NCBI RefSeq assembly: GCF_000177635.2
Contig: NC_014836.1
Coordinates: 1,624,001 to 1,688,000 of the forward strand
Source: Desulfurispirillum indicum S5
Lineage (GTDB): Bacteria > Chrysiogenota > Chrysiogenetes > Chrysiogenales > Chrysiogenaceae
DNA: 64,000 nt
Reading direction: 5' to 3'
Both the position numbers and the translations under genes were made by a program. A model generated the notes under the pieces. The model had not been told where the DNA came from, ran no database searches, and saw only the letters and a list, made by a program, of their open reading frames with translations. Shown here in pieces: positions 4,615-33,493 of the stretch (within the stretch, counting starts at the first letter, position 1; each line of letters starts with the position of its first letter).

Positions 4615-4700
4615 TGGCGGAAGAGGTAGGATTCGAACCCACGGAGCTTTCGCTCAACGGTTTTCAAGACCGCCGCCTTAAACCACTCGGCCACTCTTCC
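4615..4700 (-). tRNA. tRNA-Ser (anticodon UGA)
   Basis: Read on the minus strand, the 86-base gene has acceptor arms GGAAGAG and CTCTTCC, discriminator G and an encoded CCA at its 3' end (4615-4617). The anticodon loop CTTGAAA holds TGA, and there is a long variable arm with stem GAGC/GCTC, both as expected for serine. The T-arm contains GGGTTCGAATCC. The 3' end is the presumed attachment site of the neighbouring integrase. Confidence 0.95.
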
Positions 4701-18699: not shown

Positions 18700-18817
18700 T
18701 CTCCCGTCTCTGACTGGAGCCATTGAGGGGATGGGGTACGCAAAGCCTGGCTTCCCATTTTTCTCTGCGCCTGCAAAAGTACTCTTCCAGCTTTTGCCAT
18801 TGCCTTTATGCCTGTAC

Positions 18818-18845
18818 GTCCGCGTAATCTGCGGACACGTTTTTT
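18818..18845 (+). terminator. Terminator after the SH3b gene
   Basis: GTCCGC (18818-18823) pairs with GCGGAC (18831-18836), loop of seven, followed by ACG and TTTTTT. A weak but plausible rho-independent terminator. Confidence 0.6.
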
Positions 18846-18949
18846 CCCTCATTCCCCAAAATCCCCTCCATGCCTTCTGTTTTCCTCCCTCGCCTTTGCT
18901 GTGAACGAAAGTTTCGTATCCCATAATTTTCATATAAAACATTAAAAAT

Positions 18950-19617
18950 AACTCAACTTTCGCACCTTGTCGCGCTGGGCTAAGGTGTTGCTATAATGAG
19001 ATTTACCATGAGGAAACAGTGTATATTTTGCGTACTTGACTCATCTGGCATCACTTTTCGTTTCCGGATATTGCCCTTTTTGACCGCCCAAAAAGGGCAC
19101 AAAAACGCGCCCCCCGAACGCCCGTTTTTCCGGCTTATTGCTTGCCTGTTCTGGAGATCCGGCAGACACTGCGTCCCTGCAGTGCTGCCGGACCACTCAC
19201 TTCCTGTGAGTGTCCCGTTCGGGTCTTGCCAGCCAGGCGTCGCACTCACCGGACGGGCTCAGGGGGGAACGGCCTGCTCCTGTTTCTCCCCCGTGTGCTG
19301 GCCCAGCCAGGACGCGAAGACTGGAACGCTATGGACCCGCAGGGTTGACGCCACGAGGGCGGCAACCGCAAACCAAAAACCACGGAGGGCGGTTGTTTGC
19401 GGTCCCCAGTTCCAGGCAAGCGGGCGGCTGATAAGGACAGCACTGGGGGTCGCTTCCCAGCCACTTTTTGCGGGTAAAAAGTGGCAAAAGAAACTCGTGT
19501 ATATGGTGAGGATAATGTCAAGCAACGCAGTCTGTGCAGAACCACTTCCTCCATTCCAGCATGGCATCAGGGTCGGTGCCGATAACCTGCAGTTTCGGAG
19601 GTGAAACCTCGAGTTTG
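18950..19617 (+). repeat. Structured dispersed element, copy A
   Basis: First of three copies. The core (19073-19485) opens with a 10-bp hairpin (GCCCTTTTTG, loop ACCGCC) and closes with another (GCCACTTTTT at 19460-19469, loop GCGGGT, AAAAAGTGGC at 19476-19485). Internal helices lie at 19158-19192, 19194-19212, 19344-19366 and 19366-19402, and CTGGAAC (19321-19327) can pair with GTTCCAG (19409-19415). Left and right flanks (18950-19072 and 19486-19617) are also shared with copy B. In the left flank TATAAT with an extended TG (18989-18997) could be a promoter. No reading frame is conserved among copies. It lies between the ends of the converging SH3b and flgE genes. Confidence 0.85.
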
Positions 19618-19620
19618 CAG

Positions 19621-19655
19621 AAAAAAATTCCCGCCTGCGGAGCAGGCGGGAAAAA
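19621..19655 (-). terminator. Rho-independent terminator of the hook operon
   Basis: On the minus strand an 11-bp perfect stem (19628-19638 with 19642-19652, three-base loop) is followed by a run of seven T. It is 280 bases past the flgE stop and directly abuts the end of repeat copy A. Confidence 0.85.
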
Positions 19656-19933
19656 CCAAATACGATGAGCGAAGAATATTGTCATGTCCACTTCCCTGAC
19701 GGGAACCATGGATAGTGGCAATGTTTCTCTTCCTGTTCCACACAAAAGCCGCTCGAATCTTTTGGGTTTCACTTGCCTCTGGTGTATCCCAAGGGCCTGG
19801 TACGCCACGAGGGCAGAGGTACGGACGCGTGTCTGCCCGCGGAAGATCACTGCCGTGCCCCTCAAGGGGGCAACCCTGAGAGCCTGGTCACCTTGCCAGC
19901 GCTCCCCGGATTGCCCCCCGAAGGGGGGATTGT
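19656..19933. other. Long 3' untranslated region of flgE
   Basis: No gene is recognised here. On the minus strand, five bases after the flgE stop, C6-TTC-G6 (19914-19928) forms a very stable hairpin with a C(UUCG)G tetraloop, and a second smaller inverted repeat (CTCA..GGG / CCCTGAG) is at 19861-19880. The flgE transcript must cross this before the terminator at 19621-19655. Confidence 0.5.
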
Positions 19934-22900
19934 TTAGCGTTTCATGTTCAGGACTTCCTGAATCATGCTGTCCGAGGTGGAGATGATGCGCGAGTTGGCC
20001 TGGAAACCACGCTCGACGATGATCATCTGGGTGAACTCCATGGAAAGGTCTACGTTACTCATCTCCAGGGAGTTACTGATGATGGTTCCGAATCCGGCTG
20101 AGCCGGGAGCAGCATAGTTGGGCTGTCCACTGGCATTGGTGGAGACAAAGAGGGAATTCCCAACCTTGGAAAGGCCCTGAGGGTTGGTGAAGTCCGCCAG
20201 GGTCAACTGAGCCAGCGGACGGGAAAGGTCGTTACTGAACAGGCCGTAGACGATACCATTTTCATCAATGGAATAGTCTTCAAGCGTTCCTTCCTTATAG
20301 CCGTTCTGCCGCTGTTTAGTGGTATCAGACTTGCTGGCGTACTGGGTAAAGCCGTCAAACCCGCCACCAGGCGTGCCCATGTCGATGACGACCTCCATTG
20401 GGTTGGCACCATTGTTGGGAACGATGAACAGCGGGCCACCGATCATCATTTCCAGGCCGCCATCGGGGCTGAAAGTAATGCTTCCCTCCGGCAGGGAGAG
20501 CGATCCGGCGCCGCCGGTGATCTCAGCTGGTTTGGGTACGCTGGCCTTCCAGGTCCACTGGTTCACATTACGCGGATCAGGGTCCTTGTAGAATTCAAAA
20601 TCCAGAGAATGAACAAAGCTTTCGGAGTCAATGATATTGACCGTGGTGGCATGATAGCCTCCGGAAGCCAGCTGCTCCACACTCAGGGAGGTGGTGATGG
20701 CGTTGAAAATGGGGTTGCCCGGCACCGAGAGCTTCAGGTCGAGGATGGAGAAGTGTTCGCCATCATCGCCGTTGATGACAATAGAGCCATTCTCATTGAC
20801 GTAGACACCCTTGTTGTTCTTGAGGTTCAGGGACTGCTCCAGGGCGTAGGCCAGGTCTCCCAGGGTGGTGTCGCTCTGTCCCAGGTTATTGTTCACCGAC
20901 ATGGAGGAGCTGAACTGCTGCCCCATACCAAGGGTGGCACTCAGGGAAATGCGGTCGTTGGTACCCAGGCCAAGGCTCGTGCCATTGCTGTTATAGAGAC
21001 GTGCCAGCTTGGTGTCTTCGTTGGCACTGGTCAGGAAGCGCTCCGACGTTGACATGGAACCGGTCAGCAGGGTCGCGGGCAGGTTCAGGGCCTGGTTCAG
21101 GCGCGCCGAAGAGGTAATGATCTCGGCACCGGTGATATGGTGGTTAATGGGGCCACGCAGGATACCGGAAGTGCCGGCCGCGCTGACATTGAGGTTGCTG
21201 AATGGGCCACTTGCCGTGGTGTTCAGCTGGTGGCGCAGATTGATGTCACGGCCCACATAGTTGATGGGGCCTGTCATGCCGATCTGCATGGTACGGGCCG
21301 AAACACCAGCTGAGAAAATTACATTGCTCAGGGGCTCAAACAGGGGATTCAGCAGATCCTGATAGGCCGCATCAACGCCGGCATTGATAGAAACGCTCAG
21401 TTCGGCCAGTCCACCACTGCTGGGGTTTTTAAATTCGAAATCCTTGCCGGTCCAATTAACAATAAAGCCCGTGACCCCTGCAGCTACAAGCTGATCCTGA
21501 ATATGGGCGGCGATATTGGCCATGGAGGTCATGGCAGTGGCATCGACGTTAATGGTGGTCAGAACCGTCTGTCCGGGGCGACGGAAGGTGATATCGAAGT
21601 TGGCCCCGTCAAAATCTGTACCATTAAAACCAAAATAATCGGTGGCTTCAAAGTCAGCATTCACCGCGCCCGTTGCCGTGGCATCAAAATTCAATCGTCC
21701 GTCCTCTTCCAGGGTGACATTCACATCGGCCAGGGCAGGGTTGGTATTGATGATGGTGATCAGTTCGTCCAGGGAGCTGAAGTAATAGGCTCCCGCGTTG
21801 CTGTTATTGCCACGAATCCCTTCAGGGTCATAGACAAAGGTGGCAATCTGGGGAACATCAACACCGGCCACGTTCACTGTGCCCGTGACCACGGAGATGG
21901 CATCGTTGGCGTCCTTAAAGCCCATCTTCTGCAGCGTAAAACCACCGTCGTGATTGTTATCATAGGTGATCTTGCCACCCAGCTGGTCGGACGTCTTGGG
22001 GTCGGCGCCGAAGATAAAGTCGCCAGTCAGATTATCCAGATACTCGTTGACGGCCTTGTCGTTGCCCACATTGGTGCCGCTGTAGCTCACCTGAATATTG
22101 CCCAGGTCAAACCCGGCGATATTGGCGAAAGCCAGGCGACCACCATCATTGTAGGCGCGTATGAGGTTCATGGCGTCGGTGGAAATGGAACCATCCTGGC
22201 TGTCACCAACGGTATAGGCGCTGAACGCGGTACTGACCGTGGTTCCGGCAGGAATTTTCACACCCGACGAAAAACTGAAGCGGATCCAGTCACCAGCACC
22301 GTTGACCTGCACCAGGTTGGGATCGGTGGCGTGGATGGTGACAAAGTCACCGGCGGCAAGCTCAATGCTGCGGTAGAGACCATTGGGGTCTTTGCTGCCA
22401 TCATAGAGGGTCATGGGAGCGCCACTGGTGTTGGTGACGACGGTGCCATTCTCCAGGCGCTCGGAAAGGCGCACACCATCAGCCTGCATGCCCGTATAGG
22501 GAGCATCGACGTTGACCTCGTAGCCAGCCGGGAAAGCGGTGGTGTGATTACCGGGGGCAAAGTCGGAGTTGATCTGCATGATCAGCTCATCAAGAGTTGA
22601 AAAAGGTTTGGCCATGTTATCCACGCCGCCAATGGCAGTCGTGTCGAGGGAAACAGGGTTGGTGGCCGTGGAGTAGTAGTACTCCTGGGTCACCAGGTTG
22701 CCCTTGACTTCCATGGAAATGCGGATACGGTCGTTGCCGTCCTGGAAGTTAAAGACGCTGATATCGCCGATATAGGCGCGGCTGGTGGCGCTGACATTCT
22801 GCATGGAACCCTGGAGGCGGGCAGTCAGTTCTTCCAGGGTATTGAAGTCAAGCCCCTTGTTGTACTGCTCCTGGAAGAAGAATTCGCTGGATGTCTTGAC

Positions 22901-29654: not shown

Positions 29655-30325
29655 ACTCAAGTTTCGCATCTTGTCGTCTTAGGCTAAGGCACTATTATTC
29701 TGACATTTATCGCGCGGAAACTGTATTGATTCTGAATGCTTGACTTATCTGGTCTTCCACTTTTCGCCTCTGGATATTGTCCTTTTTGACCGCGCAAAAA
29801 GGACACAAAACGCGCCCCCCGAACGCCCGTTTTTCCGGCTCGCCTGCTCGCCTGTTCTGGAGATCCGACAGACACTGCCTCCCTGCAGTGCTGCCGGACC
29901 ACTCACCTCCTGTGAGTGTCCCTTCGGGTCTTGCCAGCCAGGCTTCACACTCACCGGACGGGCTCAGGGGGGAACGGCCTGCTTCTGTCTCTCCCCCGTG
30001 TGCTAGCCCAGCCAGGACGCGCCGACTGGAACGCTATGGACCCGCAGGGTTGACGCCACGAGGGCGGCAACCGCAAACCAAAAGCCACGGAGGGCGGTTG
30101 TTTGCGGTCCCCAGTTCCAGGCAAGCGGGCGGCTGAAAAGGACAGCACTGGGGGCCGCTTTTGCGCCACTTTGGGCGGGTCCAAAGTGGCAAAGAAACTC
30201 ATAGACAAGGCGAGGGCAATGTCAAGAAACGCAGTCTGTGCAGAACCATTTTGGCCATCCCAGTATGGTATCCAGGTCGGCGCCGACAACCTGCCGCTTC
30301 GGGGTGCGAAACTTCAGTTTGAAGT
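29655..30325 (+). repeat. Structured dispersed element, copy B
   Basis: Second copy, with core 29779-30190. Its end hairpins differ from copy A by paired changes: GTCCTTTTTG/CAAAAAGGAC (29779-29788, 29795-29804) and GCCACTTTGG/CCAAAGTGGC (30165-30174, 30181-30190), the loop GCGGGT being unchanged. Internal helices at 29864-29898, 29900-29918 and 30049-30071 match those of A. The 29655-29778 and 30191-30325 flanks are similar to those of copy A. It lies in the divergent region between sppA (minus) and thiC (plus). A short deletion (CCCTTCGGG instead of CCCGTTCGGG) shifts any reading frame relative to copy A. Confidence 0.85.
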
Positions 30326-30548: not shown

Positions 30549-30560
30549 TGCAATACATTT

Positions 30561-30640
30561 TCCGTTGGGGGCGCTTCCGTAAGGAGGCTGAGAAGAACCC
30601 CATGAACCTGATCCAGGTAATGCTGGCGAAGGGAAACGGG
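30561..30640 (+). promoter_or_regulatory. TPP riboswitch (THI element) aptamer
   Basis: The conserved THI-box cores are present: GGGG..GCTGAGA (to 30592), ACCC (30597-30600), and GAACCTGATCCAGGTAATG then CTGGCGAAGGGA. Stem P1 is CCGTT (30562-30566) with AACGG (30635-30639). Bound thiamine pyrophosphate stabilises P1. It sits between the promoter and thiC. Confidence 0.95.
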
Positions 30641-30659
30641 TGCCGTGTTCACGACATAC

Positions 30660-32038: not shown

Positions 32039-32236
32039 ATGGCACAAGTCAACGGACGCACCGTACCCATCCCCGAAAGTATCTCCATTGAACAGCTGAA
32101 AGAACAGCTGGGCGTCAACGCCTGCCGCATGGCCGTGGAAGTCAACGGCGAGCTGATCGACCAGAACCGCTTCGGGGAAGCGATCATTAACGACCAGTGT
32201 ACGGTGGAGATTATTACCCTGGCTGGAGGCGGTTGA
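32039..32236 (+). CDS. thiS: Sulfur carrier protein ThiS
   Basis: A 65-residue ubiquitin-like sulfur carrier for the thiazole part of thiamine. The C terminus ITLAGGG provides the di-glycine that becomes a thiocarboxylate; an extra glycine is present. AGGAGG lies eight bases before the ATG at 32039, and the gene begins 11 bases after thiC. The gene is followed, four bases past its stop, by repeat copy C. The activating ThiF is not in the window. Confidence 0.92.
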   Translation: MAQVNGRTVPIPESISIEQLKEQLGVNACRMAVEVNGELIDQNRFGEAIINDQCTVEIITLAGGG

Positions 32237-32240
32237 TACT

Positions 32241-32656
32241 GTTCCTTTTTGACCGGCCAAAAAGGAACCAAAAAGCCGCCCCCCGAACGCCCGTTTTTCC
32301 AGCTCGTTAGCTTGCCTGTCCTGGAGATCAGGCAGAAGCTGCATCCCTGCAGCTCTCCCGGACCACCTGCCTCCTGCAGGCGTCCCGTTCGGGTCTTGCC
32401 AACCAGGCTTCGCACTCACCGGACAGGCTCAGGGGGGGGGAGAGAGTGAGATGCTTTGCTCCCCGTGTGCTTGCTTCTGCCAGGCAGCACCGACTGGAAC
32501 GCTGGCAGCCCGCAGGGTCGCCGCCACGAAGGCGGCGACCGCAAACACAGTCAGGGATGACGGTTGTTTGCGGCCCCAGTTCCAGACAAGCTGACGGCAG
32601 AAATCTGCAAGCACTGAGGGCCGCTTTTGCGCACCTTTTGGCGGGTCAAAAGGTGC
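32241..32656 (+). repeat. Structured dispersed element, copy C (core only), inside the thi operon
   Basis: Third copy, without the outer flanks shared by A and B. It starts four bases after thiS and ends 60 bases before thiG. Left hairpin GTTCCTTTTTG/CAAAAAGGAAC (32241-32251, 32258-32268), right hairpin GCACCTTTTG/CAAAAGGTGC (32631-32640, 32647-32656), loop GCGGGT conserved. Stem 32517-32525 with 32531-32539 is a full 9-bp helix here. A 23-base block at 32278-32300 is identical to that of A (19109-19131) and B (29814-29836). It must be transcribed through for thiG and thiH to be made, unless it carries a promoter. Confidence 0.85.
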
Positions 32657-32716: not shown

Positions 32717-33493
32717 ATGTCAACAGACCAACTGATCATAGCCGACCGTTCATTCACTTCCCGCCTGCTCATGGGCACCGGGAAATTCGCCAACAATCAG
32801 CTTATGGCCGAGGCTATCCGCGCTTCCGAGACGGAAGTGGTGACGGTGGCCCTGCGCCGGGTTGATCTGGATGCGCCCCAGGACGATATGCTGGCGGCCA
32901 TTGACACGGAGCGCATTCTGCTGCTGCCCAATACGGCGGGGGCACGGGATGCGGAGGAGGCGGTGCGTCTGGCCCGCTACGCCCGCATGGCGGGTTGCCC
33001 TTCCTGGGTGAAGCTGGAGGTGACGCCCGATCCGCGCTACCTGTTGCCTGACCCGCTGGAGACCTACAAGGCGGCCCAGATCCTCATCAAGGAGGGCTTT
33101 ACGGTGCTGCCCTATATCAACGCCGATCCGGTGCTGTGCAAGCACCTGGAGGAGATCGGCTGCGCCACGGTCATGCCCCTGGGCAGCCCCATTGGCAGCA
33201 ATAAGGGGATCAAGACCCGCGAAAACCTGCGTATAATCATAGAGCAATCCCATGTGCCGGTGGTGGTGGATGCGGGGCTGGGCGCTCCTTCCCACGCGGC
33301 TGAGGCCATGGAGATGGGGGCTGACGCGGTGCTGGTGAATACAGCCATTGCCATTGCCAGCGATCCAGCTGCCATGGCCCGCGCCTTTGCCAAGGCCGTT
33401 CAGGCGGGTCGTGAGGGGTATCTGGCGGGACTTGGCCCCCAATCCAGTTTGGCTTCAGCTTCCAGCCCCCTCAAGGGCCTGATGTGGGAGTGA
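32717..33493 (+). CDS. thiG: Thiazole synthase ThiG
   Basis: Forms the thiazole phosphate ring from deoxyxylulose phosphate, dehydroglycine and ThiS thiocarboxylate. The 258-residue TIM-barrel protein has the Schiff-base Lys in [10 protein letters not shown], phosphate-binding [13 protein letters not shown] and [12 protein letters not shown] ribosome binding site AAGGAA precedes the ATG. It is separated from thiS by 480 bases of repeat copy C. Confidence 0.95.

Follow-up and report, generated by a model that had tools for sequence, protein, structure and literature searches.

The three repeats that stand out in the analysed part of the Desulfurispirillum indicum S5 genome are copies of a folded core that is dispersed at about 70 sites of this genome, and we regard this core as, probably, a non-coding, non-autonomous mobile repeat that depends on its fold. 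Each core is an inverted dimer of one unit, the signal of the fold is not due to chance, and the distribution of changes over its stems argues for a fold needed during propagation and not for a role as host RNA at the individual sites. The stretch of DNA under study, hereafter the window, is 64,000 nt long and corresponds to positions 1,624,001–1,688,000 of a single-contig genome of 2,928,377 bases.

An initial annotation of the window had reported three co-oriented copies, and their coordinates, lengths and common orientation are as it gave them (Table 1). Likewise, the terminal hairpins are perfect in all three copies and the loop GCGGGT is common to the three right hairpins of the window. 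At the scale of the genome, neither this loop, in place of which GCGACC, GCGAGT and GCGGTT also occur, nor the 23-base block described as unchanged in all copies turns out to be invariant. A unit (about 200 nt) is made, in this order, of an AT-rich terminal hairpin (26–28 nt), an A-rich linker of the CAAAAACGCG type, a C-run, a three-hairpin cloverleaf and a G-run, the C-run and the G-run pairing as the closing stem of the cloverleaf. When a covariance model built from 5′ units alone (R2) was applied to the window, it matched all three 3′ halves, each on the opposite strand (E 2e-12, 1e-7 and 1e-7), and direct alignment of the halves agrees with the model: the 3′ half is an inverted, diverged relative of the 5′ half. 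Half copies exist in this genome, some of which break close to the junction between the G-run and the C-run. Moreover, one core (L073) is preceded, about 60 nt upstream, by another hairpin of this type (GCCATTTTTGCATCGCCAAAAGTGGC), which is paired in part and has a linker of its own; it is perhaps the remnant of an older copy.

Table 1. Position and architecture of the core copies and outer elements in the window (window coordinates unless stated otherwise; TIR, terminal inverted repeat).
Feature	Position	Strand	Remarks
Outer TIR element of copy 1	18952..19613	+	662 bp; left TIR CTCAACTTTCGCACC intact, right TIR degenerate GGTGAAACCTCGAG
Copy 1, left TIR pattern match	genome 1642952-1642969 = window 18952		also from flank alignment
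Core copy 1	19073..19485	+	inverted dimer of folded unit; 413 nt
Copy 1, 5′ unit	19073..19267	+	terminal hairpin 19073-19098, linker, cloverleaf closed by CCCCCC/GGGGGG
Copy 1, 5′ unit model match	19140-19243	+	E 1e-30; pair counts
Copy 1, 3′ unit	19288..19485	-	inverted relative of 5′ unit; terminal hairpin 19460-19485
Copy 1, 3′ unit match to 5′-unit model	19314-19421	-	E 1e-7
Outer TIR element of copy 2	29656..30317	+	662 bp; both TIRs recognisable
Copy 2, TIR pattern matches	genome 1653656-1653673; genome 1654300-1654317	+; -	
Core copy 2	29779..30190	+	terminal hairpins 29779-29804 and 30165-30190
Copy 2, unit matches	5′ unit 29846-29948; 3′ unit 30019-30126	+; -	
Core copy 3, bare	32241..32656	+	without outer TIR element; hairpins 32241-32268 and 32631-32656
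Copy 3, unit matches	5′ unit 32310-32413; 3′ unit 32487-32591	+; -	3′ unit E 2e-12

The count of three copies was a gross underestimate. A BLAST search of the core against the full genome, which the initial annotation had proposed as a check, returned 58 matching pieces with copy 1 as the query and 53 with copy 3, while R1, a covariance model made for the 5′ cloverleaf, gave at least 73 matches in the 2.93 Mb of the genome, a figure that is a lower bound, since 78 of 1955 candidates were scored, and in which a few composite copies match twice. All of these copy numbers are minima. In the same search, one sister genus gave five matches to R1 (E 1e-24 to 5e-16), whose units stand singly there, with one hairpin, and 49 other genomes of the phylum gave none among the candidates scored. 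A second sister genus contains 3′-type fragments (L031 and L033). Searching plasmids and phages with the core by blastn yielded no match, and the genome paper (PMC3368425) does not mention the repeats. As the initial annotation expected, the family is not in Rfam: there was no gathering-level match for the window copies and 18 related loci, nor anything convincing at E values up to 10. A protein-coding repeat was considered and rejected, the open reading frames differing between copies and matching nothing in Pfam or NCBIfam.

Several measures bear on the fold itself. RNA-folding z values are −5.0 for copy 1 and −4.8 for copy 3, and the DNA-folding z value of copy 1 is −7.1. Across 17 sequences of the 5′ cloverleaf, 94.8% of the cells are paired and 17 of the 36 pairs show two-sided changes. 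The covariation announced by the initial annotation withstood the control, its score for the 5′ cloverleaf being reached by none of 500 shuffles, while slid controls collapse and the score rises to 0.37 once five sister-genus units are added. The internal stems do covary, but two of the details given for them contain minor errors: the stem CACCTGC/GCAGGCG of copy 3 has the three compensatory pairs ascribed to it and also one A.C mismatch, and GTTGACGCC/GGCGGCAAC of copy 1 contains one A.G mismatch.

At face value, strong covariation and folding z values of −5 to −6.5 could also point to a core that codes for a functional structured RNA, regulatory or catalytic, and is multicopy by chance. Strand-specific changes lend themselves to the same explanation, since the one-sided stem changes, read on the plus strand, comprise 23 C-A types versus 8 G-T types, an excess that G.U pairing would tolerate on the minus strand, as for a selected minus-strand RNA. 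This bias comes mainly from the 5′ unit, however, and is inconsistent once the inversion of the two units is taken into account. A strand preference drawn from G.U tolerance (23 versus 8, in favour of the minus strand) was thus set aside as weak, the 5′ and 3′ units disagreeing in their own frames. Against a structured RNA also stand the absence of any Rfam family, the failure to find a sigma-70-like promoter in positions 18700–19950 and a random orientation to neighbouring genes: among the cores, 18 point in the same direction as the flanking genes and 14 in the opposite one, 16 lie between divergent and 12 between convergent genes (gene calls being longest-ORF guesses). Because there is no orientation bias, we likewise reject a terminator or cis-regulatory role. 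Pairs are also freely broken by private changes (see below), and we consider such an RNA unlikely. The new structured RNA envisaged by the initial annotation, with a host function at each locus, does not fit copies that show no preferred orientation to genes and decay individually.

To return to the preferred reading of a fold-dependent mobile repeat, we split the changes into private ones, seen in one copy, and shared ones, seen in three or more copies. Shared changes amount to 0.142 per site at paired versus 0.355 at unpaired sites, and 24 of 33 keep Watson–Crick pairing, whereas private changes strike paired and unpaired sites alike (0.216 versus 0.247 per site) and keep pairing in 19 of 50 cases (Fisher p = 0.003), so that stems are not maintained in individual resident copies. 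Since shared changes spare the stems and private ones do not, the fold is preserved along the spreading lineages and not in the resident copies. From this pattern, we infer a single-stranded intermediate. The earlier claim of selection on structure and not on protein consequently holds for the propagating lineage but fails for single copies, whose stems private changes break freely.

Copy 3 lies between thiS (stop codon at 32234–32236) and thiG (start at 32717), where the gap measures 480 nt versus 1–3 nt in both sister genera; going by this comparison with two genera, copy 3 would have been acquired within the thi operon. A transcript of the thiamine operon would carry its 416-nt fold. Upstream of thiC, at 30557–30651, lies a TPP riboswitch (RF00059), with thiC, thiS and thiG following downstream. 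Elsewhere in the window, a terminator-like hairpin on the minus strand (19621–19665), just past the outer element of copy 1, bears a weak, sub-threshold resemblance to RF02837 (anti-hemB), and the only tRNA gene is a tRNA-Ser (TGA) at 4615–4700 on the minus strand.

Most cores inspected sit within an outer element of 662 bp that has no gene inside and is bounded by 15-bp TIRs, with CTSAASTTTCGCAYC at both ends of the 27 elements scored. An 18-base TIR pattern matches 56 times in comparison with once for its reversed control, and exact target duplications of 6–7 bp flank 15 of the 27 outer elements versus 1 of 702 mismatched flank pairs, although copies 1 and 2 themselves show no matching target duplications. 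TIRs combined with target duplications of 6–7 bp are the signature of a cut-and-paste (DDE-type) transposase that acts in trans, and the outer element has the TIR and target-duplication features of a miniature inverted-repeat transposable element (MITE). Along with the position of copy 3 between thiS and thiG, which adjoin each other in the sister genera, and the roughly 70 dispersed copies, these features, present around most cores, bear out the suggestion of a hairpin-ended mobile element made by the initial annotation. Neither the TIRs nor the bare core could be assigned a transposase, and the two core-less copies of the outer arms (L136 and L138), examined as potential autonomous partners, have no transposase downstream. 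At another locus (L022, genome 2515253–2515580), a DDE_Tnp_ISL3 transposase gene (PF01610, E 6e-41) immediately adjoins the truncated end of a core copy; there, an insertion sequence has probably landed in the element.

Many cores harbour, at one or two fixed positions, a nested element of 124–128 nt (CAGGCTGCT...TTGCCTG) that is probably another MITE (L020, L021, L030 (twice), L065, L067–L070, L113, L119–L121 and L124–L127). Its recurrent position suggests that one lineage of core plus insert was amplified.

Copy 3 and about ten other cores are bare. In several of these, the left hairpin lies 2–16 nt from a gene, which leaves no room for an outer arm, and their ends are the inverted, diverged units; flank alignments show no obvious target duplication. 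A core that is merely the passive cargo of the TIR element would make such bare copies deletion remnants, its stems being kept by template-switching at hairpins or by gene conversion between the arms. This would agree with the location of most copies inside the TIR element and with the abundance of two-sided changes and rarity of G.U intermediates, which template-switch correction of quasipalindromes would produce likewise. Yet both a sister genus and the phylum of Desulfobacula have the same cloverleaf without this TIR element, private changes are left uncorrected, and copy 3 and others adjoin genes directly at the hairpin, all of which renders passive carriage quite improbable.

If the core is a fold-dependent mobile repeat, one folded strand (single-stranded DNA, e.g., a lagging-strand template, or RNA) would be required during copying or mobilisation of the element. 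The cloverleaf and the terminal hairpins would be maintained owing to this need for folding, and the copies, once inserted, would be inert and decay. Bare cores would move independently, and some of them could be what the outer element left behind; the element may also make a functional RNA during its mobilisation. With a fold kept only in spreading lineages, conservation of structure would mark a transposition intermediate and not a host RNA, which, if true, is a trap for RNA discovery based on covariation.

Related units extend beyond the phylum. When R2 was applied to 395 genomes sampled from the phylum to which a Desulfobacula genome belongs, one of them yielded two units (E 4e-8 and 3e-7) built in the same order, i.e., hairpin, CAAAGAAAA, CCGCCCCC, cloverleaf and GGGGGG. 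Among 399 Pseudomonadota genomes, 4 contain a head motif, CAAAAGAAA-N-ACCAAAGAAAA (reversed control: 0), at loci that have the same hairpin head and long-range stems; this motif was not found in the literature texts searched. One element of similar architecture, with two hairpins, lies between dapF and a DUF484 gene in Pasteurella multocida (L157, 898–1320); its setting is probably an operon, as it is for copy 3 in thi. The locus of Ilyobacter polytropus (Fusobacteriota) has the hairpin head only, with a degenerate body. Neither the loci of Pseudomonadota nor those of Fusobacteriota were matched convincingly by R2 (best E 0.16), and their kinship, suggested by head motif and architecture only, is weaker. 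In viral contigs, the hairpin-head pattern matched 81 stretches, 5 of which have a hairpin. A scan of the genome collection, leaving out the genome of the window, for GGAGATCYGGCAGA..CTGCCRGAC returned six chance matches, none with the architecture, and was discarded.

Taken at its widest, the family might be an unclassified superfamily (hairpin, A-rich linker, C/G-run cloverleaf) present in at least four phyla and moving as a folded single strand through a non-Y1 recombinase or a host pathway, the inverted dimer described here being a derived form captured by a TIR transposon. We put this forward as a speculative extension that is more doubtful than not. The family would bring together hairpin-headed intergenic repeats from several phyla as one testable mobile class, and it raises the question of which enzyme moves them.

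Among known systems, REP/BIME repeats associated with TnpA-REP, a Y1 transposase (PMC8266576), are likewise intergenic palindromes, and the inverted unit pair with its variable linker resembles a BIME; the ends of IS200/IS605 and palindrome-associated elements also carry hairpins and, like bare cores, show no clear target duplication. Mobilisation by a Y1 (HUH) transposase, as an element of REP/BIME-like or IS200/IS605-derived type, would explain the terminal hairpins at both ends, but is very improbable. No Y1_Tnp (PF01797) was found in this genome by a search that matches both sister genera and 5 of 14 control genomes; no GTAG-type tetranucleotide is conserved 5′ of the hairpin, where the flank is ATATTG-like and variable in this genome and GTAG directly precedes the hairpin in 1 of 5 sister-genus copies; and the cloverleaf units of about 200 nt far exceed REPs, which are palindromes of 20–50 nt (PMC8266576). 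For these three reasons, we file the core neither as REP nor as IS200. It further differs from IS200/IS605 in having no tnpA or tnpB inside, inverted end hairpins and a fully structured interior.

Stem-loop repeat families from a catalogue of 40 bacterial genomes (PMC2267715), like the R-families of Pseudomonas fluorescens (PMC2718517), are similarly multicopy, intergenic and structured, some having inverted repeats in common with insertion sequences. The R-families are set apart by their descriptions, in which they measure 50–352 bp and, where described, are simply flanked by inverted repeats (PMC2718517). Finally, the outer 662-bp element resembles bacterial MITEs in its 15-bp TIRs, its 6–7-bp target duplications, its lack of genes and its dozens of intergenic copies. 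It differs from them in carrying the 413-nt cloverleaf core, and because this core also exists by itself, as well as in other genera and a further phylum, it is not just MITE filler.
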